A DNA stretch of 41,818 nucleotides, taken from the NCBI GenBank assembly GCA_002753515.1, contig PEAK01000038.1, positions 1 through 41,818 of the forward strand, read 5' to 3'. A program made the position numbers and the translations under genes. This DNA is from Magnetococcales bacterium. GTDB lineage: Bacteria; Pseudomonadota; Magnetococcia; Magnetococcales; UBA8363. Position 1 is the first letter of the stretch; the number at the start of each line of letters is the position of its first letter. Below are positions 16,731-29,590 of this stretch, piece by piece. Under the pieces are notes generated by a model, which was not told the origin of the DNA, did not search any database, and saw nothing but the letters and a program-made list of their open reading frames with translations.

Positions 16731-18953
16731 ATGGTGGGTATGCAGAAGAAAGCGGCTTGGATCGGTGATGCCTGGGGTGGTCTGGCGGCGATGTTGGTAG
16801 CGCTGCCATCGGCGATTGCCTATGGTGTGGCCGCCATGGCGCCACTGGGGGCTTCCAGTCTACCCCTGGGGGCGATGGCGGGGGTGATGGGGGTTATCGC
16901 TCTGGGTTTGACAACCCCGGGGTTGGGTGGTGCCGCACGCCTGATTACCGCCCCGTGTGCCCCTGCCGCAGCGGTTTTATCGGCTCTGGCCACGGAACGC
17001 ATCGCCAGCGGTGCCCAATCGCCCGGAGAAATCCTCATTTTTCTCACCATGGTGGCCCTGATCGCATCGCTTTTGCAAATACTCTACGGTGCCCTTGGCG
17101 GGGGCCGGATCATTAAATTCATCCCGTATCCGGTCGTCGCCGGATATCTGAGCGCTGTTGGTTTGCTCATTTTTCTCAGCCAGGTTCCGAAATGGTTGGG
17201 ATTGCCGCAGAATGTCAGCCTCGCCCAAGGCTTGACCCACCCGGAACTGTGGCAAGGCACCGGAATCCTGACCGGCTTGGTAACCATCCTCGGCATGATC
17301 GCGGCTCCTCGGATCATCCGGGGTCTGCCCGCTCCCGTCTTTGGTTTGCTCCTGGGAATGGGGTGTTATTTCCTCTCCGGTTTCAAGCATCCGGAATTGC
17401 TGCGCTTGACCGACAATCCCTTGCTGGTTGGTGCCATTCAGGTCGATTTATCCACACTGAGTCATGGATTTGCAGGGCGGTGGCAGGCATTGGGACAGTT
17501 GCGTTTGCAGGATTTGTTCTCTCTGTTGGTTCCGGCCCTGACTTTGTCGGCCCTTTTGTCGGTGGATACCTTGAAAACTTGTGTTGTCGTTGATGCCATG
17601 ACCCGATCCCGACACAATTCAAACCGGGAACTCATGGCCCAGGGGGTGGGCAATTTGGTGTCCTCCCTGGTGGGGGGAATGCCCGGTGCTGGCACCATGG
17701 GTGCGACACTGGTGAGCATCAACAGCGGCGGTCACAGCCGGTTGGCGGGGATTCTGGAAGGTTTTTTTTCCCTGTTGGTCCTGCTTTTTTTCAGTTCTCT
17801 TCTGGGTTGGGTGCCGATTTCTGCACTGGCGGGAATCCTGATCGTTGTTGCGTGGCGCATGGTCGATTGGCACACGTTCACGTTGCTGCGGCGCAACGAA
17901 ACCTTTCTGGATTTTTTTGTCGTGGCCACGGTGGTGGTGGTGGCCGTTGTGTTCAACCTGATTGTCGCTGCCGGTGCCGGAATGGCTTTGGCGGTTGTTT
18001 TGTTTTTGCGTGATCAGGTCAAGACTTCGGTGATTCGCCGCAAACTGTATGGTGGTCAGTATTCCTCCAAGCACCAACGTTTTCCCGAAGAGCGCAAAAT
18101 TCTTGAGGAAAACCAGCATTTGGTTGTCATTTGCGAGTTGCAGGGCAATCTGTTTTTCGGCACCACCGACCAGTTGTTCAGCCGTCTGGAGTCGGAACTC
18201 AGGGTGTGTCGTTTTTTGATTCTCGACATGAGTCGGGTTCAGACCGTTGACTTTACTGCCATGCACATGCTGGGTCAGATGGATGCCATGCTTTCCGAGA
18301 AGGGTGCCCATCTTATTTTGACCGAACCGTCCCGGGTTTTGTCTGGCAGTCGTAAACCGATTGTTCCTTTGGAACAGCTCGTGTTGCGCCCGACGCAACA
18401 TCTTCAGACCTTTTCCACGCTGGATGAGGCCATCGAATGGGTGGAGGATCGGATCCTTGCAGGAGATGCCTTGGAACGTGCTGCCGAGGAATGGCCATTG
18501 CCGATCCATGAATTTCCGTTGTTTCTCGGCCTGGAGGAGGAGGGGAAGGAGGGGGTATTGGCTCTATTGGGCAAGGTTGTGGAGGAGCGTTCGTTCAAAG
18601 CGGGGGAAACCTTGTTCAAACGGGGTGATCCGGGGGATGAGATGGTTTTCATCCGCAAGGGGGGGATTCGCATTGTTTTACCGATTCACGGTGGCAACAA
18701 GGAGCATACGTTGGCCATTTTTGGTCGGGGTGGTTTTCTTGGGGACATGGCGTTTATTGATCAGGCTCCCCGGTCTTCCAATGCGGTCGCGATCATGGAT
18801 ACGGATGTTTTCATTTTGTCGCGGCGAATTTTTGATCAGGTCAGCGCCGATGATCCCGAAATGGCCAAAAATATTTTCATCCGATTGTGCAAGGTATTGA
18901 CGTTGCGGCTGCGTTTCGCCGATGCCGAGATCATCGCGCTCAAAGAAGCGTGA
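16731..18953 (+). CDS. SulP family anion transporter with STAS and cyclic-nucleotide-binding domains
   Basis: 740-residue inner-membrane protein. Residues ~10-425 are a SulP/SLC26 transport core with repeated hydrophobic segments, including PSAIAYGVAAMAPLG and PYPVVAGYLSAVGLLIF. Residues ~455-570 are a STAS domain (VVICELQGNLFFGTTDQL, FLILDMSRVQTVDFTAMHML). Residues ~610-735 are a CRP-like cyclic-nucleotide-binding fold with GFLGDMAFIDQAPRSS as phosphate cassette; the usual Glu is Asp, and the Arg is kept. The substrate may be sulfate, bicarbonate or another anion. ATG follows the rarA stop directly, suggesting coupled translation. It converges with an MscS gene that has the same sensor domain, with no bases between the stop codons. 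Confidence 0.92.
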   Translation: MVGMQKKAAWIGDAWGGLAAMLVALPSAIAYGVAAMAPLGASSLPLGAMAGVMGVIALGLTTPGLGGAARLITAPCAPAAAVLSALATERIASGAQSPGEILIFLTMVALIASLLQILYGALGGGRIIKFIPYPVVAGYLSAVGLLIFLSQVPKWLGLPQNVSLAQGLTHPELWQGTGILTGLVTILGMIAAPRIIRGLPAPVFGLLLGMGCYFLSGFKHPELLRLTDNPLLVGAIQVDLSTLSHGFAGRWQALGQLRLQDLFSLLVPALTLSALLSVDTLKTCVVVDAMTRSRHNSNRELMAQGVGNLVSSLVGGMPGAGTMGATLVSINSGGHSRLAGILEGFFSLLVLLFFSSLLGWVPISALAGILIVVAWRMVDWHTFTLLRRNETFLDFFVVATVVVVAVVFNLIVAAGAGMALAVVLFLRDQVKTSVIRRKLYGGQYSSKHQRFPEERKILEENQHLVVICELQGNLFFGTTDQLFSRLESELRVCRFLILDMSRVQTVDFTAMHMLGQMDAMLSEKGAHLILTEPSRVLSGSRKPIVPLEQLVLRPTQHLQTFSTLDEAIEWVEDRILAGDALERAAEEWPLPIHEFPLFLGLEEEGKEGVLALLGKVVEERSFKAGETLFKRGDPGDEMVFIRKGGIRIVLPIHGGNKEHTLAIFGRGGFLGDMAFIDQAPRSSNAVAIMDTDVFILSRRIFDQVSADDPEMAKNIFIRLCKVLTLRLRFADAEIIALKEA

Positions 18954-20579
18954 TTATTTTTCCCGAAACAAATGGATCGCCAATCCCAGTTTGTAGAACA
19001 AGGAATTGGGTTTCAAGTGGTGTTCCATGGACAGGCTTTGCCCGGGTTCCAGGTGTTGCAATTGTTCAAACAGTTGCTTGGAGCGCCGTGCCGCCAGATT
19101 CGCCAATGCCTGTTGTACTGCCGGAGAGATGGCCAGCAAGGCATCGAAGGCCGGGGCGGAGACTTCCAGGAGTTCCACCTCTTCGGCTTCCGCCTTGATT
19201 GAGGCAGTACGGGGCAGTTCTGTCAACAAGGCCATTTCGCCCACGAGTTCCCCTGTTTCCACACGAAATTCCTGGGTTGCTTCCAAACCTTCATAAAATA
19301 CCTTCCCGTGCAGGTGTCCCCGGGCGACGATGAAGCAGCAGCGTCCCACGTCACCCTGATGGAACAAGTGTTCATTGGGACCATAAACCCGGTGTTCCAG
19401 AAGTGCGGCGAAGGTTAAAAGTTGTTCCGGGCCGGGGAGGGCTTCCCGGGGCATGTCGGCTAAGAGACGGTTGAAAAAGCCGCATTGATGCAAAAGGTGG
19501 ATATAATCCCCGGGTTGTTTCTTGACCCGTGGAATCAGGGTGGGGGCCACCGAGTAGACCGAACCGCCATCTGGAAACGGGATAGAGAGTCCGTGACGCC
19601 GCAAGCGATACCAGACCCGTTCCCGGACCATTCCTTCGAGTTTGGAACGGTCGAAGTAGGTTCTGCTCCAAAAGCGGACCAGGTAGACCACCCCATAATC
19701 CCGAAATTCGTGAATAAAGGCATCAACCGATTTGCTTTGTTCCACCTCTTCCACGCTCCTGGCGGCATCCTGGAGAAGCGTTTTTACAGTTTGCGGGAAA
19801 TCACCGAAGGAGAGGGTGAACAGCAATTGATGGCGTCGCAGCGGGCTGTTCCAGGTCATATTGTTGATGACGCTGGCGGCAAGGGTGTTGTTGGGGATGA
19901 TGTAAATGTGACCGCTGGTGCTGCGCAAGCGGGTTTCCCGCCAGTTGCGATGGATGATTTCCCCTTCTTTGTCAGCGACGGCAATCCATTGCGACGGCTC
20001 CACGGTACCGACCAGGTTCATGGACAGCCCGGCTAAAAAGTTGCTTAACACTTCGCGCAGGGCAATACCAACAACGGCTGCTACGACGGCGGTCGAAGTG
20101 AGGAGTTGGGAGGTATCGAAATCCAGGACAAAGTGAAAAATGGCAAAGGATGTTGCGCCGATGAGCAGCAGACGCAGCAGGAACAACATGACCGAAGGGA
20201 TGGGGAAGCGTCGTCGGTGGACAAAGTAGAACAGGCGGCCAATGGCTTCGTTGACGTTGAAAAACAGCAGAATCACCCAAAACAAATACCAGGCTTTGAT
20301 ATAGCGTTCATCGATGCGGGCGTGTCCCAACCATTCGGGATGGTTGGTGAGTATTTTCAGCAGGCACCAGGTCAAGGCCAGGATCAGCACGGGACGCAAG
20401 ACCGCTCCCAACAGGAGCGTCATCCAGGATTCCCCCTGGGACGACGGAGTTTCCTTTTGTACCTCGATGGCTGCCGACTCCGATTTTCGCAGACGCAAGG
20501 GGAGCGTCAGCAGCGTTGCCACGGTAAAAATTGCCAGAAAGCCACCCAATGTCAGTGAGATCAGGGATAAACTGTCCAA
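18954..20579 (-). CDS. MscS-type mechanosensitive channel with C-terminal cyclic-nucleotide-binding domain
   Basis: 541 residues. The N-terminal ~150 contain about four membrane segments. The MscS pore helix and beta domain are TAVVAAVVGIALREVLSN, LAGLSMNLVGTVEPSQWIAV and HIYIIPNNTLAASVINNM. After the MscS cage comes a CRP-like domain (~residues 385-505) with a canonical phosphate cassette, GELVGEMALLTELPRTAS, so cyclic AMP or GMP binding is likely. Such fusions form cyclic-nucleotide-gated MscS relatives (bCNG type). The start appears to be TTG 20579, with AGGA 12 nt upstream; no ATG lies near. It is 79 nt downstream of the HAMP receptor gene on the same strand. Confidence 0.9.
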   Translation of the reverse strand: MDSLSLISLTLGGFLAIFTVATLLTLPLRLRKSESAAIEVQKETPSSQGESWMTLLLGAVLRPVLILALTWCLLKILTNHPEWLGHARIDERYIKAWYLFWVILLFFNVNEAIGRLFYFVHRRRFPIPSVMLFLLRLLLIGATSFAIFHFVLDFDTSQLLTSTAVVAAVVGIALREVLSNFLAGLSMNLVGTVEPSQWIAVADKEGEIIHRNWRETRLRSTSGHIYIIPNNTLAASVINNMTWNSPLRRHQLLFTLSFGDFPQTVKTLLQDAARSVEEVEQSKSVDAFIHEFRDYGVVYLVRFWSRTYFDRSKLEGMVRERVWYRLRRHGLSIPFPDGGSVYSVAPTLIPRVKKQPGDYIHLLHQCGFFNRLLADMPREALPGPEQLLTFAALLEHRVYGPNEHLFHQGDVGRCCFIVARGHLHGKVFYEGLEATQEFRVETGELVGEMALLTELPRTASIKAEAEEVELLEVSAPAFDALLAISPAVQQALANLAARRSKQLFEQLQHLEPGQSLSMEHHLKPNSLFYKLGLAIHLFREK

Positions 20580-22517: not shown

Positions 22518-24383
22518 ATGGGATATTCCTACGATACAATCAAATCGCTTCTCATTTCCAAAAGGCCTGAATTTTGGCAAGCCCTCAAGCAGGCGAGTCA
22601 GGATGCGGTCAGTCTTGAAGAGATTCTTTTTTTAGCCACTCTTAGGAAACGCGCAGATGCCAGCAAGGATATCCCACCTGTCGATGGGGTTACGTCACTG
22701 CGTATCGCTATTTTGGGTGGCTATAGCCTTTATCCCCTGCGCGAACTGATTGAACAGTCACTTTTTGCGGTCGGTTATGTATCGCACTGTTATTTGGGGG
22801 CCTACGATAATTACACATCGGAAATACTTGACGATACCAGCGATATGGTTGCCTTCAAGCCGGAAGTCGTCATTTTGCTCCCTTCGCAGAGGCGTCATTC
22901 TTACCAGGGCGCTTTGACGGATGATCGCCAAGTGATTGAGGGGCATCTCAAAAAGGAATGTCAGCAGTTGCTCGCGCTGACGCATACCTTACATGAAAAG
23001 ACCAAGGCGGATATTTTGTTATACAATTTTATCCCGCCCCCGGGGCATGATCTTGGAACCTACCGTAATAAAACATTGGCTTCGCCATGGAGTTATACAG
23101 CACTGCTCAATCTTGAACTCGGGCTGAATGCGCCCTCGTATGTGCAAATTTGCGATGTTCATTTCATGGCGGCACGTATGGGATTGCTGGTTGCGCAGGA
23201 CCGGCGCGGTTGGTTTGAATCCAAACAATTGGGTTCCCCGGCATTATTGGTTGCCATGGCCCGGGAATCGGCACGCATTATTGCAGCATTGCGCCAACCC
23301 ATGAAAAAAGTCCTGGTGCTCGACCTGGACAATACGATATGGGGTGGCGTTATTGGTGACGCCGGGCTTGAGGGTATTGAACTGGGCGATACTTCGCCAC
23401 GTGGTGAGGCTTTCAAATATTTCCAAAAATATGTGCTTTCCCTGACCGAACGGGGAATACTCCTGGCGGTGTGCAGTAAAAATGATCACGACAAGGCCAT
23501 GGAGCCATTTGAAAAACATCCGGAGATGGTGCTGCGCAGCCAACATATCGTGTGTTTCAAGGCCAACTGGCAGCCCAAATCGGACAATATTCGCGCCATC
23601 GCTCAGGAATTGAATCTTGGGCTGGAGAGCTTTGTATTCGTGGACGACAACCCCGCAGAAATTGAGATTGTGCGCCAATTCTTGCCGCAAGTCAGTACCA
23701 TTTCACTCGCAAGCGATCCATCGGACTACGTGGGCCAATTGGAGGATTCCCACTATTTTGAACCATTGGTGATCACCCGGGAAGATCGCGATCGTTCTTC
23801 GCAATACATGCGCGAGACCCGCTACAAGGAGTTGCAGTCCGTCGCGACCGATATGGACAGTTATCTGAGTTCGTTGGCGATGCAGGCGACTTTTTCCGCA
23901 TTCACCCGTGTGGATGTGCCACGCATTGCGCAACTCATCAACAAAAGCAACCAATTCAACCTGACGACCAAACGCCGCAGTGAATCTGAAGTATTGGCGC
24001 TTTTAGCATCGGATCAGCATGTCACCTGCACCATACGTTTGAGTGACCGCTTTGGCGACCATGGTTTGATATCCGTAGTGATTGGCCAGATCGACGGGGA
24101 TTGTCTGCATGTCGATACGTGGCTCATGAGTTGTCGTGTCCTCAAGCGCCAGGTCGAAGAAGAAGCGCTGAACGAATTGGTACGTCTCGCGGTGCGTTCC
24201 GGGTGCAGTCAGGTGGTCGGTCATTATCTTCCAAGTGCCAAAAATGGCATGGTTAAATCACATTATCAAAATCTGGGTTTCACCACGGTTCGGGAAGATG
24301 ATGATGGTGGGGATTATGTATTACACATTGCGGGATATCGCCCCAAACAAACAAACATATCCATCGTGCGGAGTGCCAAGTGA
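22518..24383 (+). CDS. FkbH-like HAD-superfamily acyl-loading enzyme
   Basis: 621 residues. FkbH-type enzymes take 1,3-bisphosphoglycerate, remove a phosphate and load D-glycerate onto an acyl carrier protein. The HAD core begins VLVLDLDNTIWGGVIGDAG, with the two catalytic Asp at ~269 and 271. It continues with LLAVCSKNDHDKAMEPF and FVFVDDNPAEIEIVRQFLP. The N-terminal ~190 residues are the SGNH-like region usual in long FkbH proteins. The C-terminal ~200 (INKSNQFNLTTKRR, VVGHYLPSAKNGMVKSHY) resemble the acyltransferase-like part. Start ATG 22518; the ribosome binding site is weak. The stop overlaps the ACP start (GTGA). The next gene being an ACP supports the loading role; the exact acyl group is inferred. 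Confidence 0.88.
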   Translation: MGYSYDTIKSLLISKRPEFWQALKQASQDAVSLEEILFLATLRKRADASKDIPPVDGVTSLRIAILGGYSLYPLRELIEQSLFAVGYVSHCYLGAYDNYTSEILDDTSDMVAFKPEVVILLPSQRRHSYQGALTDDRQVIEGHLKKECQQLLALTHTLHEKTKADILLYNFIPPPGHDLGTYRNKTLASPWSYTALLNLELGLNAPSYVQICDVHFMAARMGLLVAQDRRGWFESKQLGSPALLVAMARESARIIAALRQPMKKVLVLDLDNTIWGGVIGDAGLEGIELGDTSPRGEAFKYFQKYVLSLTERGILLAVCSKNDHDKAMEPFEKHPEMVLRSQHIVCFKANWQPKSDNIRAIAQELNLGLESFVFVDDNPAEIEIVRQFLPQVSTISLASDPSDYVGQLEDSHYFEPLVITREDRDRSSQYMRETRYKELQSVATDMDSYLSSLAMQATFSAFTRVDVPRIAQLINKSNQFNLTTKRRSESEVLALLASDQHVTCTIRLSDRFGDHGLISVVIGQIDGDCLHVDTWLMSCRVLKRQVEEEALNELVRLAVRSGCSQVVGHYLPSAKNGMVKSHYQNLGFTTVREDDDGGDYVLHIAGYRPKQTNISIVRSAK

Positions 24384-24631
24384 ATCAGTCCCAAATCATC
24401 GAGAAGATGCAGACCATTTTTGATAAATTATTTCTGGAACCCGTCGTGTTGACGCCGGAATTGAGCGCAAAAGGGGTTGAGGAGTGGGATTCACTGATGC
24501 AAATCAGCATTGTGGTCGCCGTTGAAAGCCTTTTCAACATTCGTTTTAAAATGGGTGAAGTGGAAGCGACACAAAATGTCGGCCAGTTCGCGGACCTGAT
24601 TGCTCGTTGCCTGGCCAGCAAGGCATCGTGA
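24380..24631 (+). CDS. Acyl carrier protein
   Basis: 83 residues from a GTG start that overlaps the FkbH stop by four bases. The phosphopantetheine attachment motif is EEWDSLMQI, with Ser38 as the modified residue. The helical pattern IIEKMQTIFDKLF..LTPELS..VVAVESLFNIRF is typical of discrete ACPs. It probably carries the acyl group loaded by FkbH and perhaps changed by the MaoC and SDR enzymes, and presents it to the MBOAT protein at the membrane, as DltC does. No phosphopantetheinyl transferase is in the window. Its stop overlaps the GTG of the next microprotein. Confidence 0.9.
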   Translation: MNQSQIIEKMQTIFDKLFLEPVVLTPELSAKGVEEWDSLMQISIVVAVESLFNIRFKMGEVEATQNVGQFADLIARCLASKAS

Positions 24632-24753
24632 ACTCTCCGGCGGCTCGTTTCCTCCTCATTGTTGCGCTTGGGTTGGGTCTCGCTGGCATCCTGCTGGTGA
24701 TGACCGTTCCCGACATTGCGCTCAATCTGAGCCTTGTCTATCGAGAATTTTAA
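24628..24753 (+). CDS. DltX-like 41-residue membrane microprotein
   Basis: Too short for usual gene calls. GTG 24628 overlaps the ACP stop (GTGA), and the TAA at 24751-24753 overlaps the ATG of the MBOAT gene (TAATG), so the frame exactly fills the gap between two genes. The product starts MNSPAARFLLIVALGLG, has one membrane helix (~8-27) and ends LNLSLVYREF. DltX of Gram-positive dlt operons is a single-helix protein of about 50 residues ending in FIYNEF, and its terminal Tyr has been proposed as an acyl relay in the DltB channel. The C-terminal Y-x-E-F and the place beside an MBOAT gene make this a DltX analogue. Function is inferred from this motif and position. Confidence 0.75.
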   Translation: MNSPAARFLLIVALGLGLAGILLVMTVPDIALNLSLVYREF

Positions 24754-26078
24754 TGAGGAAAGACCTTGTTCAAAACCTGGTTGAACTTGTTGCCCTGCTG
24801 ATTGGATGTCTTGTTGGTTATCTGCTCTACACACGCATGTCTTGGCGTGTCGTGGACACCCATTTTCAAAACAGTCCCTTTCATATCGTGCCCCTGCTGC
24901 TGGCATACCTGGTTCTGGCGCGCATGGCCATCCGTTCGCGGACAAGGCTGGGAATGGCTTCGTTCGCCGTGCTGAACCTCGTTGGTTTCCTGAAATTGTC
25001 CACGCAATTGACAGGGGCACCGCAAATCGCCATGGTGACGCAGCAGATTCTATATATCGTTATTGTTTGTTGTCATTATTTTCTGGTGCGCCGCTATGCG
25101 GGTTCTCTTGGAAAGATTGCTCTCATCCCCATCATCATGCCGGTCATTGTTCTGATTGTTATCAAGTTGCTCTCCTTACTCACATGGCCCCGAACATCAT
25201 TGGCCGGTGCCATAATCAATATGACGTTCATGTCTTATCTCGCCTTTCGCCTGTCATACCTGGCCCTTGAAGTGCGCAATCGCATCATTCCCATGCCGAT
25301 ATTTGCGGAGCATTTCAGTTATGCCTTTTTCTTTCCCATCATGCCGGTTGGGCCCATCAGTCGCTACAGCCTGTTTCACCGCTCTTTAAAAAATCCGCAA
25401 TCCGTGCCCCTGGCCACCTGCGCAACGCGTATCCTGGTTGGCCTGACCAAATATTTCTTTTTGAGTAATATAATCAACAGTGTGTCTTTTGATGGCCTGT
25501 TATTTGACGGTCATCCGCATGGTATCTTTGATTTATTCATTTCCAGCATAGCCTATTACCTGTATTTGTATCTTAATTTTTCGGGATTTTGCGATATTGT
25601 GATCGGCCTTTCCGGGATTCTCGGCATTGCGATAGAAGAAAATTTTGACCGACCCTTCCATGCACGGTGTGTGAAAGATTTTTGGAATCATTGGCACATC
25701 ACCCTCTCGACGTATTTGCGCGATATTTTGTTTGCACCGCTTTCCAAATGGTTGGCGGGCGGGCTCGGCCCTGGCCAAGTGCAGCATGCGGTGGGCATCA
25801 CCCTGTTCGTCGTATTCCTGGTCATCGGCATGTGGCATGGATTGAGTATGAATTTCATACTATTCGGGGTGATGCACGGCGGTGCCGTCGCATGCAATCA
25901 CTATTATAACCTGATGCTCAAGAAATATCTGGGCCTGGAACATTACAAGGCTTACATGCGCAACAGGATCATCCAGGCCGTGGCCACCACTCTGACGTTC
26001 CTTTATGTTTCCATCAGCTTTCTGTTTTTTGCCAACAGCATGGAAAAGATCATGACCTTGGTGGAAGTGATACGATGA
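24753..26078 (+). CDS. MBOAT family membrane-bound O-acyltransferase (DltB/AlgI-like)
   Basis: 441 residues from ATG 24753; a longer upstream frame only reads across the ACP and microprotein genes. About ten hydrophobic segments. Family signatures: FSYAFFFPIMPVGPISRY, YLYLYLNFSGFCDIVIGL, FDRPFHARCVKDFWNHWHIT, LSTYLRDILFAPL and VIGMWHGLSMNFILFGVMHG. The His in GMWHGLS (~residue 362) is the invariant catalytic one. Its partner in DltB/AlgI systems moves an acyl group from a cytoplasmic carrier across the membrane to an SGNH protein. Here the carrier would be the ACP of this operon and the acceptor the SGNH-like protein six genes on from FkbH. Stop overlaps the next start (ATGA). Confidence 0.92.
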   Translation: MRKDLVQNLVELVALLIGCLVGYLLYTRMSWRVVDTHFQNSPFHIVPLLLAYLVLARMAIRSRTRLGMASFAVLNLVGFLKLSTQLTGAPQIAMVTQQILYIVIVCCHYFLVRRYAGSLGKIALIPIIMPVIVLIVIKLLSLLTWPRTSLAGAIINMTFMSYLAFRLSYLALEVRNRIIPMPIFAEHFSYAFFFPIMPVGPISRYSLFHRSLKNPQSVPLATCATRILVGLTKYFFLSNIINSVSFDGLLFDGHPHGIFDLFISSIAYYLYLYLNFSGFCDIVIGLSGILGIAIEENFDRPFHARCVKDFWNHWHITLSTYLRDILFAPLSKWLAGGLGPGQVQHAVGITLFVVFLVIGMWHGLSMNFILFGVMHGGAVACNHYYNLMLKKYLGLEHYKAYMRNRIIQAVATTLTFLYVSISFLFFANSMEKIMTLVEVIR

Positions 26079-26500
26079 GTGCGAATACGTTGACGTTTGC
26101 CGATATGATTCCAGGCTTGCATCAAGAGCGGGAGTACACGATATCCAAAGCTGTCCACCAGGCATTTTTGGAGGTCTCTCAAGATCGGAGCCCCATTCAT
26201 GTCGATAAAGTCGCCGCCATGGAGCGGGGATTTGCAGGTCGTGTGATGCATGGTGCCATCCTGAACGCTTTCCTCTCCCATTTCATTGGCATGGTTTTCC
26301 CGGGAAGGAATGCCTTACTGCTGAGTGTCGAACTCCGCTATGCCAATCCTTCCTATTTGGACGATACGTTGCTGTTAAGCGCCCGGGTCATGCATCGCAG
26401 TGACAGTCACTCCGTTGTCGAGCTGAAAATTATTTTTGAGAATCGTACACGAGGCGTGCGTGCGGCGAGTGGCAAAGCGTTGGTGAAAGTGGTGGCATGA
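26075..26500 (+). CDS. MaoC-like (R)-hydratase/dehydratase
   Basis: 141 residues, a single hot-dog domain. The hydratase-2 motif is clear: SQDRSPIHVDKVAAMERGF followed by VMHGAILNAF, with the catalytic Asp and His both kept. Such enzymes add water to, or remove it from, enoyl/3-hydroxyacyl thioesters on CoA or ACP. In this operon it may modify an acyl chain on the ACP, for example together with the SDR next door. Starts ATG 26075 and overlaps both neighbours by four bases (ATGA at each end). Confidence 0.88.
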   Translation: MSANTLTFADMIPGLHQEREYTISKAVHQAFLEVSQDRSPIHVDKVAAMERGFAGRVMHGAILNAFLSHFIGMVFPGRNALLLSVELRYANPSYLDDTLLLSARVMHRSDSHSVVELKIIFENRTRGVRAASGKALVKVVA

Positions 26501-27186
26501 GCAAATATTTACTCATCAGTGGCGGCACCAAAGGCTTGGGACGGGCTATTTCCAACCGTTTCGCACGTGAGGACTATTGGGTGACGGCGCTTTACCACGC
26601 AGATGAGCGGGCGGCTGCGGCATTGCGCAGTGACAGGATTGATTGCGTATGTTGCGATATCGCCCGGGCACCCTTTGCCCTTCCGTCCTTGGCCCGGGAC
26701 GACGAGCTGATGATTATTCACAATGCAGCCTATGGATTTACCCCACAACCCATGCATCTAAGCGATTGGGCGCACTATCGCAACCATTGGGAGGTGGCGG
26801 TTGGTGGTGCGCACCATTTGATCTATCCCAATTTACGGCAGATGTTGCAGCTTTCCCGTAGTACCGTCATCGCTGTTTTAAGTTCGGTGGTTGCGGGGAT
26901 GCCTCCCAAGGGGTTCGCCGCGTATGCCAGTGCCAAATTGGCGTTGAAAGGGTTTATGGAGTCCTTCGCAGTGGAATTTTCCGGGCGTGGCATTCGCTGC
27001 CTCTGCGTCAGCCCGGGTTTTATGGATACGGCATTGACGCAAGGGTGGGATGCGCGCTTCCGACAGGCCGCCGGGGCGGACTTCGCCCCTTCGACGGAAC
27101 AGGTGGCCGATGAAATCTTTCACCTCGCCCATGCGTCTACGATGGATGCGGCAGGCGAAAATCACCTGCTCGGAGTAAGAACATGA
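26497..27186 (+). CDS. Short-chain dehydrogenase/reductase (FabG-like)
   Basis: 229 residues. NAD(P)-binding SGGTKGLGRAI at the N-terminus, NAAYG for the NAG motif, catalytic Ser in VLSSVVAG, YASAK for Tyr-x3-Lys, and SPGFMDT after it. The fold is complete although slightly short. The substrate may be a 3-oxoacyl or hydroxyacyl group on the operon's ACP, as FabG and MaoC enzymes often act in sequence; that is inference. It overlaps maoC and the SGNH-like gene by four bases each. Confidence 0.9.
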   Translation: MSKYLLISGGTKGLGRAISNRFAREDYWVTALYHADERAAAALRSDRIDCVCCDIARAPFALPSLARDDELMIIHNAAYGFTPQPMHLSDWAHYRNHWEVAVGGAHHLIYPNLRQMLQLSRSTVIAVLSSVVAGMPPKGFAAYASAKLALKGFMESFAVEFSGRGIRCLCVSPGFMDTALTQGWDARFRQAAGADFAPSTEQVADEIFHLAHASTMDAAGENHLLGVRT

Positions 27187-28316
27187 CGATGCGTCCCGCT
27201 TTTCTTTCCAGGACGGCACTGGTTGTTTTTCTTGCATCGATCTCTTTTTTTCTGGTGTTACCCGTGGTTATGTACCATGCGAACTATCCGGCACCAGACG
27301 GCGTGTATAAAATAGTGCCTACCAATTTTGCCCCCTATGATTTTTTTCACAGGGTCATCTTTGAAGAAAAGGGCGATATTGATGTCCTGATCATCGGTCC
27401 TTCGTACTCATGGAATGCCTTGGACGCCGGTATCATTAAACAAGCCCTTTCGGAAAAACTGGGGCGCGAAGCGGTTGTCTACAATTTTGGCAGCAACTGG
27501 CGTGGAGAGAATGTTTATTATTATTTGTTGCGCGATTTGACACGCAATCGCAATGTCAAGCTTTTCTTGTTCAACCCCCCGAAATCGTTCAGCCGTAACG
27601 ATCCCCATCCCAAATCATCGTATTTCATGCTTTATGGCCACGACGAAGTCGTGCAGGAAATGTCTTTTTTTCGCAGGCTGCAAGCCTATGCCTTTGTGAT
27701 GCTCGGAACGCCACGTCATTTGGTAAGCTTGTTACGCGACAATCGGACGACCCCGGCATCCAAGTATGAAACGGACTATGACCGGCTCCATCCCTACAGA
27801 CTGGAAATTCGTGATAAAATAGCACAAAATGTGGAACCCCACTTCGGCACGCAAAAAGTTTATTCGAGTATTGATGGCCCCTTCATCGCGCAGGAAATGA
27901 TCCCACCAGAATTCACTGCGGAGCAATTACTTTACAGTAAAGCAACAGAAGGGAACTATACTTTTTCTGGACGATCGCAAGGTAGATTGTTGGAATATCA
28001 ATCGACTTATATTAAACACATCTTTCGAATCGCACGTAACAGGGGTGTCGCCATTGCTACATTTCATGTGCCGATATACAAGTTTCGCAAAGAAAAGACC
28101 ATGGGCGAGGTCGTCAATTGGGCAACACATTACCCAGAATTCAATCTGGCGATGTTGGGCATTCCAAGCAGTGAACTGTTCAAAGGTCTGAGTGAAGAAC
28201 AATTACGCAATATGTACTATGATAATCATATGAATGTGAACGGTGCCGCTTATTATACCAAGGCCTTATTGCCGGGGATATTGGCACTCTATGACAATGC
28301 AACACACCAGAAATGA
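27183..28316 (+). CDS. Membrane-anchored SGNH-like protein (DltD/AlgJ-like partner of the MBOAT)
   Basis: 377 residues. One N-terminal membrane helix (~10-30, TALVVFLASISFFLVLPVV) would place the rest outside the inner membrane. Block I is VLIIGPSYSWNALDAG, with Ser74 as likely nucleophile, as in DltD (GSS). A C-terminal DNHMNVNGAAYY supplies Asp347 and His349, in the D-x-H arrangement known from AlgJ/AlgX (DTHWT). So a Ser-His-Asp triad is present. In Dlt and alginate systems the SGNH partner takes the acyl group from the MBOAT and puts it on the polymer. Overall similarity to named families is low; I call it from motifs, topology and operon. The last gene of the coupled set. Confidence 0.75.
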   Translation: MTMRPAFLSRTALVVFLASISFFLVLPVVMYHANYPAPDGVYKIVPTNFAPYDFFHRVIFEEKGDIDVLIIGPSYSWNALDAGIIKQALSEKLGREAVVYNFGSNWRGENVYYYLLRDLTRNRNVKLFLFNPPKSFSRNDPHPKSSYFMLYGHDEVVQEMSFFRRLQAYAFVMLGTPRHLVSLLRDNRTTPASKYETDYDRLHPYRLEIRDKIAQNVEPHFGTQKVYSSIDGPFIAQEMIPPEFTAEQLLYSKATEGNYTFSGRSQGRLLEYQSTYIKHIFRIARNRGVAIATFHVPIYKFRKEKTMGEVVNWATHYPEFNLAMLGIPSSELFKGLSEEQLRNMYYDNHMNVNGAAYYTKALLPGILALYDNATHQK

Positions 28317-28681: not shown

Positions 28682-29590
28682 ATGGGACACCCCTTGCTGA
28701 CCCGGGTGCTGGATGCGGCGGAAACCGTGATCCTGGGGAAACGGCGCCAGTTGCAAATGGCCCTGTGTTGCCTTTTGGCCCGGGGGCATTTGTTGATCGA
28801 AGATGTACCAGGGGTGGGCAAGACGTTGTTTGCCCACGTCCTGGCGCGGGTTCTGGGACTGAATCTGCAACGCATCCAATTTACCAGTGACCTCCTGCCC
28901 GCCGATATTTTAGGTTATTCCATTCCCGACTTGACCGGCAAATCGTTTCAATTCCGTCCCGGTCCCGTTTTTTCGCAAATGATTTTGGCCGACGAGATCA
29001 ACCGTGCCACTCCCAAAGCCCAGAGTGCCCTGCTGGAAGCCATGGAGGAACGCCAGGTGACGGTGGACGGCGAAACCAGACCCTTGCCGCAGCCTTTCTT
29101 CGTTATCGCTACGCAGAATGCTTCCACTTCGGTTGGTGCATTTCGGTTACCGGAATCGCAGTTGGATCGGTTCTTGATGCGCATGACCATGGGGTATCCC
29201 GATGCGGGTGCGGAACGAACCCTGCTGACGGGTGCGGACCGCCGCATGCTGTTGCAACAGATGGACAGTCCGCTGGATGCGGCCACATTGCACGCGGTGA
29301 TGGCACAAGTCCCCGGGATTCACGTGGCGGACCCCTTGATGGATTATGTCCAGGCCATTCTGGCCCATACCCGCCAACCGCAACGCTTCGTCACCGGGTT
29401 GTCGCCCCGGGCGGGTTTGGCCTTGCTGGCGGCTGCCAAGGCGCATGCCTTGTTACAGGGGCGCCAGGGTGTCACCCCGGAAGATGTACAAGCGGTATTG
29501 CTGCCGGTCACCAGCCATCGCCTGGTTCCTTTGAGTGGTGATAATACAAATCCTGGTACCGCTTTGTTGACCGCAGTGGCGGTGCCCTAG
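28682..29590 (+). CDS. MoxR family AAA+ ATPase
   Basis: 302 residues. Walker A IEDVPGVGKTLFAHVLAR, then the MoxR-specific RIQFTSDLLPADILGYSI, Walker B MILADEINRATPKAQSALLEAMEE and sensor VIATQNASTSVGAFRLPESQLDRF (in pieces). MoxR ATPases act as chaperones for metal insertion or complex assembly and usually stand beside DUF58 and VWA genes. Here DUF58 and transglutaminase genes follow, but no VWA gene. A ribosome binding site is not obvious. Confidence 0.93.
   Translation: MGHPLLTRVLDAAETVILGKRRQLQMALCCLLARGHLLIEDVPGVGKTLFAHVLARVLGLNLQRIQFTSDLLPADILGYSIPDLTGKSFQFRPGPVFSQMILADEINRATPKAQSALLEAMEERQVTVDGETRPLPQPFFVIATQNASTSVGAFRLPESQLDRFLMRMTMGYPDAGAERTLLTGADRRMLLQQMDSPLDAATLHAVMAQVPGIHVADPLMDYVQAILAHTRQPQRFVTGLSPRAGLALLAAAKAHALLQGRQGVTPEDVQAVLLPVTSHRLVPLSGDNTNPGTALLTAVAVP

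Follow-up and report, generated by a model that had tools for sequence, protein, structure and literature searches.

A putative FkbH-fed, Dlt-like acylation operon in a Magnetococcales bacterium and its relatives

In Dlt systems the invariant tyrosine in the C-terminal FXYXXF motif of the microprotein DltX takes D-alanine from the MBOAT protein DltB and passes it to DltD (PMC12148441), and the DltX of B. thuringiensis ends in FIYNEF (PMC5541007). In PatA the FXYXXF motif is fused to the MBOAT, and a 2025 study described the MBOAT/SGNH pathways besides Dlt as working without a carrier protein and without a DltX-like microprotein (PMC12148441). Ligase-driven dlt operons with DltX are known in a few Gram-negatives (PMC5541007). 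For relatives of FkbH, loading of a glyceryl group from 1,3-bisphosphoglycerate is known or proposed. Here we analysed a stretch of 41,818 nucleotides from a Magnetococcales bacterium (contig PEAK01000038.1; hereafter the window), which carries at 22518–28316 an operon of seven + strand genes in the order FkbH, acyl carrier protein (ACP), one-helix microprotein, MBOAT, MaoC, short-chain dehydrogenase/reductase (SDR) and SGNH-like protein. An original prediction, made from the DNA alone, had described the seven genes as overlapping by 1–4 bases, and the gene coordinates bear this out, with successive overlaps of 4, 4, 1, 4, 4 and 4 bases. The features of the operon are as follows:

22518–24383, + strand: FkbH-like protein, 621 residues (TIGR01686, 4e-94; FkbH_N-like N-terminal region, HAD-IIIC domain, acyltransferase-like C-terminal part)
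24380–24631, + strand: ACP, 83 residues, GTG start (weak PF00550 match; serine in a WDS motif)
24628–24753, + strand: DltX-type membrane microprotein, 41 residues, GTG start (one hydrophobic helix; tail LVYREF)
24733–24750, + strand: acyl-shuttle hexapeptide L-V-Y-R-E-F at the C-terminus of the microprotein (FXYXXF-type match)
24753–26078, + strand: DltB-like MBOAT, 441 residues (PF03062 above cut-off; no fused C-terminal shuttle)
26075–26500, + strand: MaoC-type hydratase/dehydratase, 141 residues (PF01575, 4.7e-11, above cut-off; active-site DxSPxH)
26497–27186, + strand: FabG-like SDR, 229 residues (PF00106, 1.2e-22, above cut-off; GGTKGLG and YxxxK)
27183–28316, + strand: putative membrane-anchored SGNH-like acyltransferase, 377 residues (N-terminal helix at 10–32; alignment and AlphaFold model)

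We propose that this operon probably encodes, as a whole, a machine that acylates an extracytoplasmic polymer with a glycerate-derived group; substrate, acyl product, acceptor and the direction of each chemical step are put forward from sequence. FkbH would draw on 1,3-bisphosphoglycerate, an acyl-phosphate of glycolysis, for glycerate and load it as a glyceryl thioester on the phosphopantetheine of ACP Ser38, and since the acyl-phosphate would supply the glycerate, an ATP-dependent ligase would not be needed. MaoC would then dehydrate and SDR reduce the ACP-bound glyceryl, the simplest product being lactyl-ACP via enol-pyruvyl/pyruvyl-ACP, and because no ketosynthase is present the two enzymes would modify the C3 unit without lengthening it. 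The MBOAT would collect the acyl group from ACP and carry it through the membrane to the microprotein, where Tyr38 of the LVYREF tail would receive it. The tail would pass it to Ser74 of the SGNH-like protein, which would attach it to a hydroxyl of the polymer; an exopolysaccharide or another glycan of the surface is the likeliest polymer. The loading, transmembrane and transfer steps we hold, as a type, to be highly probable. That the acyl group derives from glycerate is also a claim made with good confidence, and a polysaccharide acceptor is likely; lactyl in particular has slightly less than an even chance. The original prediction of a Dlt-like acylation machine fed by FkbH thus gains support from gene co-occurrence, the shuttle tail, the fold match of the MBOAT and, weakly, that of the SGNH-like protein, and the acyl group and acceptor that it named we infer.

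Three MBOATs of Magnetococcales served as queries in a scan of GTDB species genomes for relatives, and all locus counts given here are among the matches listed rather than a full census. At least 17 MBOAT loci were found at E≤2e-57, followed by a gap and then mainly by authentic DltB of Bacillota. The loci lie in Acidobacteriota (L120, L123, L124 and L126, the last from Edaphobacter modestus DSM 18101), Verrucomicrobiota (L121, L125, L127–L131 and, by tree position, L122), Melainabacteria/Obscuribacterales (L132–L134) and Magnetococcales (L135, L136). In a tree the window MBOAT and 17 relatives form one clade (18 rows, support 100/99), and true DltB (100/100) and long AlgI-like MBOATs (100/100) fall outside it. 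FkbH, ACP and an SGNH-like gene stand beside the MBOAT at 15 of the 18 places, window included. The original prediction had pointed to co-occurrence of FkbH, ACP, microprotein, MBOAT and SGNH genes as a check, and this pattern was found, with FkbH–ACP in 17/17 testable genomes (15 at the same locus) and the microprotein at 17/17 testable loci. L132, a 3-kb contig, was left out of the FkbH–ACP count, and L121 out of the microprotein count. L121 starts at a contig end, and its genome holds an FkbH–ACP–SGNH row reaching the end of another contig (L210); the FkbH–ACP pair of the L127 genome lies elsewhere (L209). At the other 63 MBOAT loci of the scan FkbH was present once, at L138 of Brevundimonas lenta DSM 23960, which is an FkbH–ACP–MBOAT–SGNH operon whose MBOAT carries the shuttle as a fused tail (FVYQAF). 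In an FkbH tree, 14 of 15 MBOAT-partner FkbHs are monophyletic (support 99; the exception is the long-branched L136), and as both partner sets form one clade, FkbH and MBOAT appear to have been inherited together. Across 398 Pseudomonadota genomes the MBOAT lineage occurs in three only, all Magnetococcales, while two weaker matches carry the fused form. It is present in none of seven other genomes of the genus, one of which (G004) has the fused form, and a search of a plasmid collection with the MBOAT gave weaker matches only, all of them under 60% identity and under 80% query coverage.

This joint distribution bears on whether the MBOAT and SGNH-like proteins instead use acetyl-CoA in the manner of PatAB/AlgI, with FkbH, ACP, MaoC and SDR making an unrelated product and merely sharing the promoter. 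Acyl-CoA is regarded as the donor of bacterial MBOAT–SGNH systems besides Dlt (PMC12148441), and long AlgI-like MBOATs also adjoin FkbH–ACP in other Magnetococcales, both of which speak for such an arrangement. However, in their respective trees the FkbH and the MBOAT partners each group as a clade, the association of these genes holds across four phyla, and a short MBOAT with a free shuttle and a carrier is the Dlt layout and not the acyl-CoA layout, which makes this explanation very unlikely. The long AlgI-like MBOATs concerned are found at L080, L082, L084, L099, L101, L105 and L114, where most end in FIYFQF and adjoin FkbH and ACP on the same strand; FkbH–ACP may feed several MBOAT types.

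The microprotein (MNSPAARFLLIVALGLGLAGILLVMTVPDIALNLSLVYREF) has no match in Pfam, the DltX family included, or in NCBIfam. Its tail was not mentioned in the original prediction and is an addition to it: LVYREF and FXYXXF have the tyrosine and last phenylalanine at equal spacing and the same end residue, and Tyr38 (codon 24739–24741) is the candidate acyl-accepting residue. The pattern [VI]Yxx[FM] stands at the exact C-terminus of the microprotein at all 17 testable clade loci (L121 is cut off), and since only 60 of 6,651 open reading frames of 34–60 residues in the clade loci carry such a tail, a background that includes the real microproteins, the shuttle tail exceeds chance. The microprotein gene lies on the opposite strand at L136 and precedes the SGNH gene at L133. 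If the proposed machine is real, a rule would follow from it: a short MBOAT accompanied by a 40–49-residue peptide ending in [VI]Yxx[FM] marks carrier-fed acylation. Gene callers easily overlook such microproteins.

The MBOAT retains His315 (25695–25697) and His362 (25836–25838), both invariant in 12 relatives, so that the histidine placed by the original prediction near 362 is confirmed. A match to the DltB model TIGR04091 (4e-49, below the equivalog cut-off) was dropped as proof of DltB kinship, and because AlgI-like MBOATs match this model too (~1e-45), kinship was judged by tree. When the family profile was compared with the PDB, DltB structures 6bug/8jem were the sole sequence relatives (E ~5e-55), and the AlphaFold model (predicted local distance difference test, pLDDT, 84.6) superposed best on DltB, with template modelling (TM) scores of 0.72–0.78. 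The C-terminus reads MTLVEVIR, without a hexapeptide, whereas the AlgI-like MBOATs found in this order have the tail FIYFQF. Judged by its place in the tree, the MBOAT is not a member of the DltB clade. Compared part by part, the known proteins nearest to those of the operon are DltB, DltX and DltD, as would be the case if this were a genuine D-alanylating dlt operon that had diverged and had its ligase gene elsewhere. Yet FkbH occupies the place of the ligase, the MBOAT falls outside a DltB clade that is itself supported at 100/100, and D-alanylation has no place for MaoC, SDR or FkbH, so we consider this origin extremely improbable.

FkbH scores 315 bits against TIGR01686 (cut-off 147), its HAD-IIIC DxDxT motif is D269–T273 (DLDNT), and the motifs DLDNT, CSKND, DDNP, NKSNQFN and MSCRVLKR are common to FkbH relatives in the alignment; no second FkbH was found in the source genome at E≤1e-30. 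The FkbH reading frame at L133 (L133:5664-8465, − strand; Obscuribacterales) is 933 residues long, ~300 residues beyond other FkbHs. The ACP match to PF00550 is weak (19.0 bits, below the 20.8 cut-off). Its phosphopantetheine serine, which the original prediction had placed at Ser38, lies there (codon 24491–24493), and the WDS motif is conserved in 13/13 aligned ACPs.

The SGNH-like protein gave no match in Pfam, NCBIfam or PDB sequence searches. Ser74 (27402–27404) and His349 (28227–28229) are where the original prediction had put them and are largely conserved, with serine in 13 of 16 aligned sequences (cysteine in two) and the histidine, within an H-x-N-x-x-G block, in all full-length SGNH-like sequences aligned. 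The first ten PDB matches of the AlphaFold model (pLDDT 82.6) are all DltD, with PatB next, and the modelled protein weakly resembles DltD in fold.

Several observations weigh against the proposed machine. The third member of the predicted triad, Asp347, is not strictly conserved: in most relatives the aspartate precedes the histidine by three residues, in the window by two, and three relatives have asparagine instead. The SGNH nucleophile is changed from serine to cysteine in L133 and L134 (Melainabacteria), and because the TM-scores of the model against DltD are low (0.32–0.41), the fold assignment rests on rank. The first position of the shuttle hexapeptide is leucine and not phenylalanine. 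Most relatives lack MaoC and SDR, having a VOC gene or nothing instead, and the proposed lactyl step is drawn from chemistry and from polyketide loading modules. Finally, a scan of the proteins encoded around the operon in the window showed no sugar-polymer genes. This last point, together with FkbH and ACP being best known from polyketide pathways, would suit an operon that tailors a secreted metabolite, with a glycolipid, lipid or exported small molecule as acceptor. Against this, polysaccharide genes lie beside two relatives (L120 and L123 are placed among glycosyltransferase, sugar-transferase and O-antigen-ligase-type genes), and envelope polymers are the targets of those MBOAT–SGNH pairs with acyl-tyrosine shuttles that have been characterised to date (PMC12148441), and we regard such an acceptor as unlikely.

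The tailoring genes vary within the clade. MaoC and SDR are present in five members (window, L120, L121, L122 and L131), and the relatives retain D and H of the MaoC active site. Eight members (one with a fragment) have a VOC-family gene similar to methylmalonyl-CoA epimerase (TIGR03081, below cut-off), and four or five have neither, including L123, L124, L126 (Edaphobacter-type) and L135 (Magnetococcales). As MaoC and SDR are missing from most relatives, the acyl group cannot be identical throughout the clade. Where they are missing, a VOC gene is seen 3' of the MBOAT at L125:4580-4990, L129, L130, L134 and others. The VOC protein could epimerise the acyl thioester at C2, and such a candidate acyl-ACP epimerase would explain L-glyceryl, which gellan carries (PMC9737242). 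A further genome of the genus has a MaoC–SDR fusion adjoining FkbH and an MBOAT (L039), and SDR-bearing proteins of similar length occur at L081, L089 and L090; these together tie the MaoC/SDR activities to FkbH whatever the MBOAT type.

Polyketide loading modules with FkbH, dehydratase and ketoreductase make lactyl, and a literature search for this combination making lactyl returned no source. The same machine, its mechanism unchanged, might transfer plain glyceryl or another hydroxyacyl group, with MaoC and SDR serving another role. L123, L124, L126 and L135 have the core of FkbH, ACP, SGNH, microprotein and MBOAT with no tailoring genes, so that the core alone should move glyceryl, and exopolysaccharides are known to carry glyceryl as well as lactyl groups (PMC4432689). 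In the window, however, MaoC and SDR lie inside the overlapping operon, between the MBOAT and SGNH genes, with active-site residues kept, and we view transfer of the plain group as a real possibility of somewhat less than even likelihood.

Extended to the clade, the glycerate-fed relay suggests, tentatively and with about as much doubt as confidence or a little more, an envelope-acylation family in at least four phyla that is powered by a glycolytic acyl-phosphate rather than by an ATP ligase or acyl-CoA. FkbH-made glyceryl-ACP would feed a Dlt-type relay of MBOAT, tyrosine microprotein and SGNH protein, and swapped tailoring enzymes would set the 2-hydroxyacyl ester, MaoC and SDR giving lactyl and VOC the opposite glyceryl enantiomer. 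If this is true, the acyl-tyrosine relay would be a general transporter that accepts different carrier-loading enzymes, and the genes would provide a genetic handle on the glyceryl and lactyl esters of exopolysaccharides (PMC4432689).

On its 5' side the operon is separated by a 0.47-kb gap from a divergent HAMP-domain-like gene, and on its 3' side by a 0.37-kb gap from a MoxR-like gene (28682–29590), of which a second, stop-interrupted copy with 88% identity lies in the same genome (L227; G000:C97:1121-2026, − strand). Promoter and terminator scans were at chance level. The idea of a recent island was examined: the G+C content of the operon is 0.48–0.53, below the 0.52–0.59 of its flanks, and the contig of the nearest relative stops exactly at the insertion point, which limits the comparison. 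Further upstream, a SulP-type transporter with STAS and cyclic-nucleotide-binding domains (16731–18953, + strand) lies tail to tail with a mechanosensitive-channel-like protein having, by eye, a cyclic-nucleotide-binding-like C-terminal part (18954–20579, − strand). At the window edge, positions 1–36 (− strand) match a group II intron fragment (RF02001) barely above the gathering score, clipped by the contig end.

Compared with known systems, the operon shares with Dlt, which serves D-alanylation of teichoic acid in Gram-positive bacteria and some Gram-negatives, a carrier protein, a DltB-type MBOAT without a fused shuttle and a one-helix microprotein with a YxxF-type tail, and it has a putative membrane-anchored SGNH protein whose model weakly resembles DltD. 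It differs from Dlt in having FkbH as the proposed carrier loader, MaoC and SDR (VOC in relatives) and an MBOAT in a clade of its own, and D-alanine is not expected as its acyl group. None of the seven operon proteins has an AMP-binding match such as a DltA ligase would give, FkbH being found in its place, and the ACP, with its phosphopantetheine serine, is the predicted functional equivalent of DltC, with no orthology implied. On these sequence comparisons the operon probably works like Dlt yet is no member of it, lacking DltA and having an MBOAT outside the DltB clade. The original prediction of a Dlt-like system in a Gram-negative, powered by FkbH, therefore keeps its novelty in the FkbH feed and not in the Gram-negative occurrence (PMC5541007). 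Another Magnetococcales genome (G014) apparently holds a ligase-driven Dlt-like operon: at L042:7937-11964 an MBOAT without fused shuttle, a microprotein ending in VFRYAGF, an SGNH-like gene and an AMP-ligase lie in a row; that strand also carries, farther on, an ornithine/arginine-decarboxylase-like gene. An apparently ligase-driven Dlt-like layout is also seen in Nitrospinia (L179:4684-8452; microprotein ending in LFYGDF, ACP, ligase-like protein and MBOAT), and L178 is a further look-alike by sequence appearance.

The O-acetylation systems of the PatAB, AlgI/AlgJ/AlgX and WssH/WssI types likewise pair an MBOAT with an SGNH protein and have an acyl-tyrosine shuttle motif, but there the hexapeptide is part of the MBOAT, borne on two additional helices, and acyl-CoA is used without a carrier; since both a carrier and a separate shuttle are predicted here, the operon is not PatAB/AlgI-like. 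FkbH with a stand-alone ACP is shared with the modules of tetronate and methoxymalonyl-ACP biosynthesis, in which glyceryl-ACP feeds a polyketide, whereas here it is the proposed donor for transmembrane acylation. L138 and L039 have FkbH, ACP, MBOAT and SGNH-like genes as in the operon, but their MBOATs belong to another lineage with the shuttle fused at the C-terminus (FVYQAF and IVYKVF, respectively). Literature searches on FkbH combined with MBOAT or with polysaccharide and on the glyceryl genes of gellan, with most subscription journals outside their scope, found no account of such a system, and by that measure an FkbH-fed, carrier-dependent MBOAT–microprotein–SGNH lineage over four phyla appears to be new. 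Set against the described pathways besides Dlt, this lineage has both carrier and microprotein, with a different loading enzyme.

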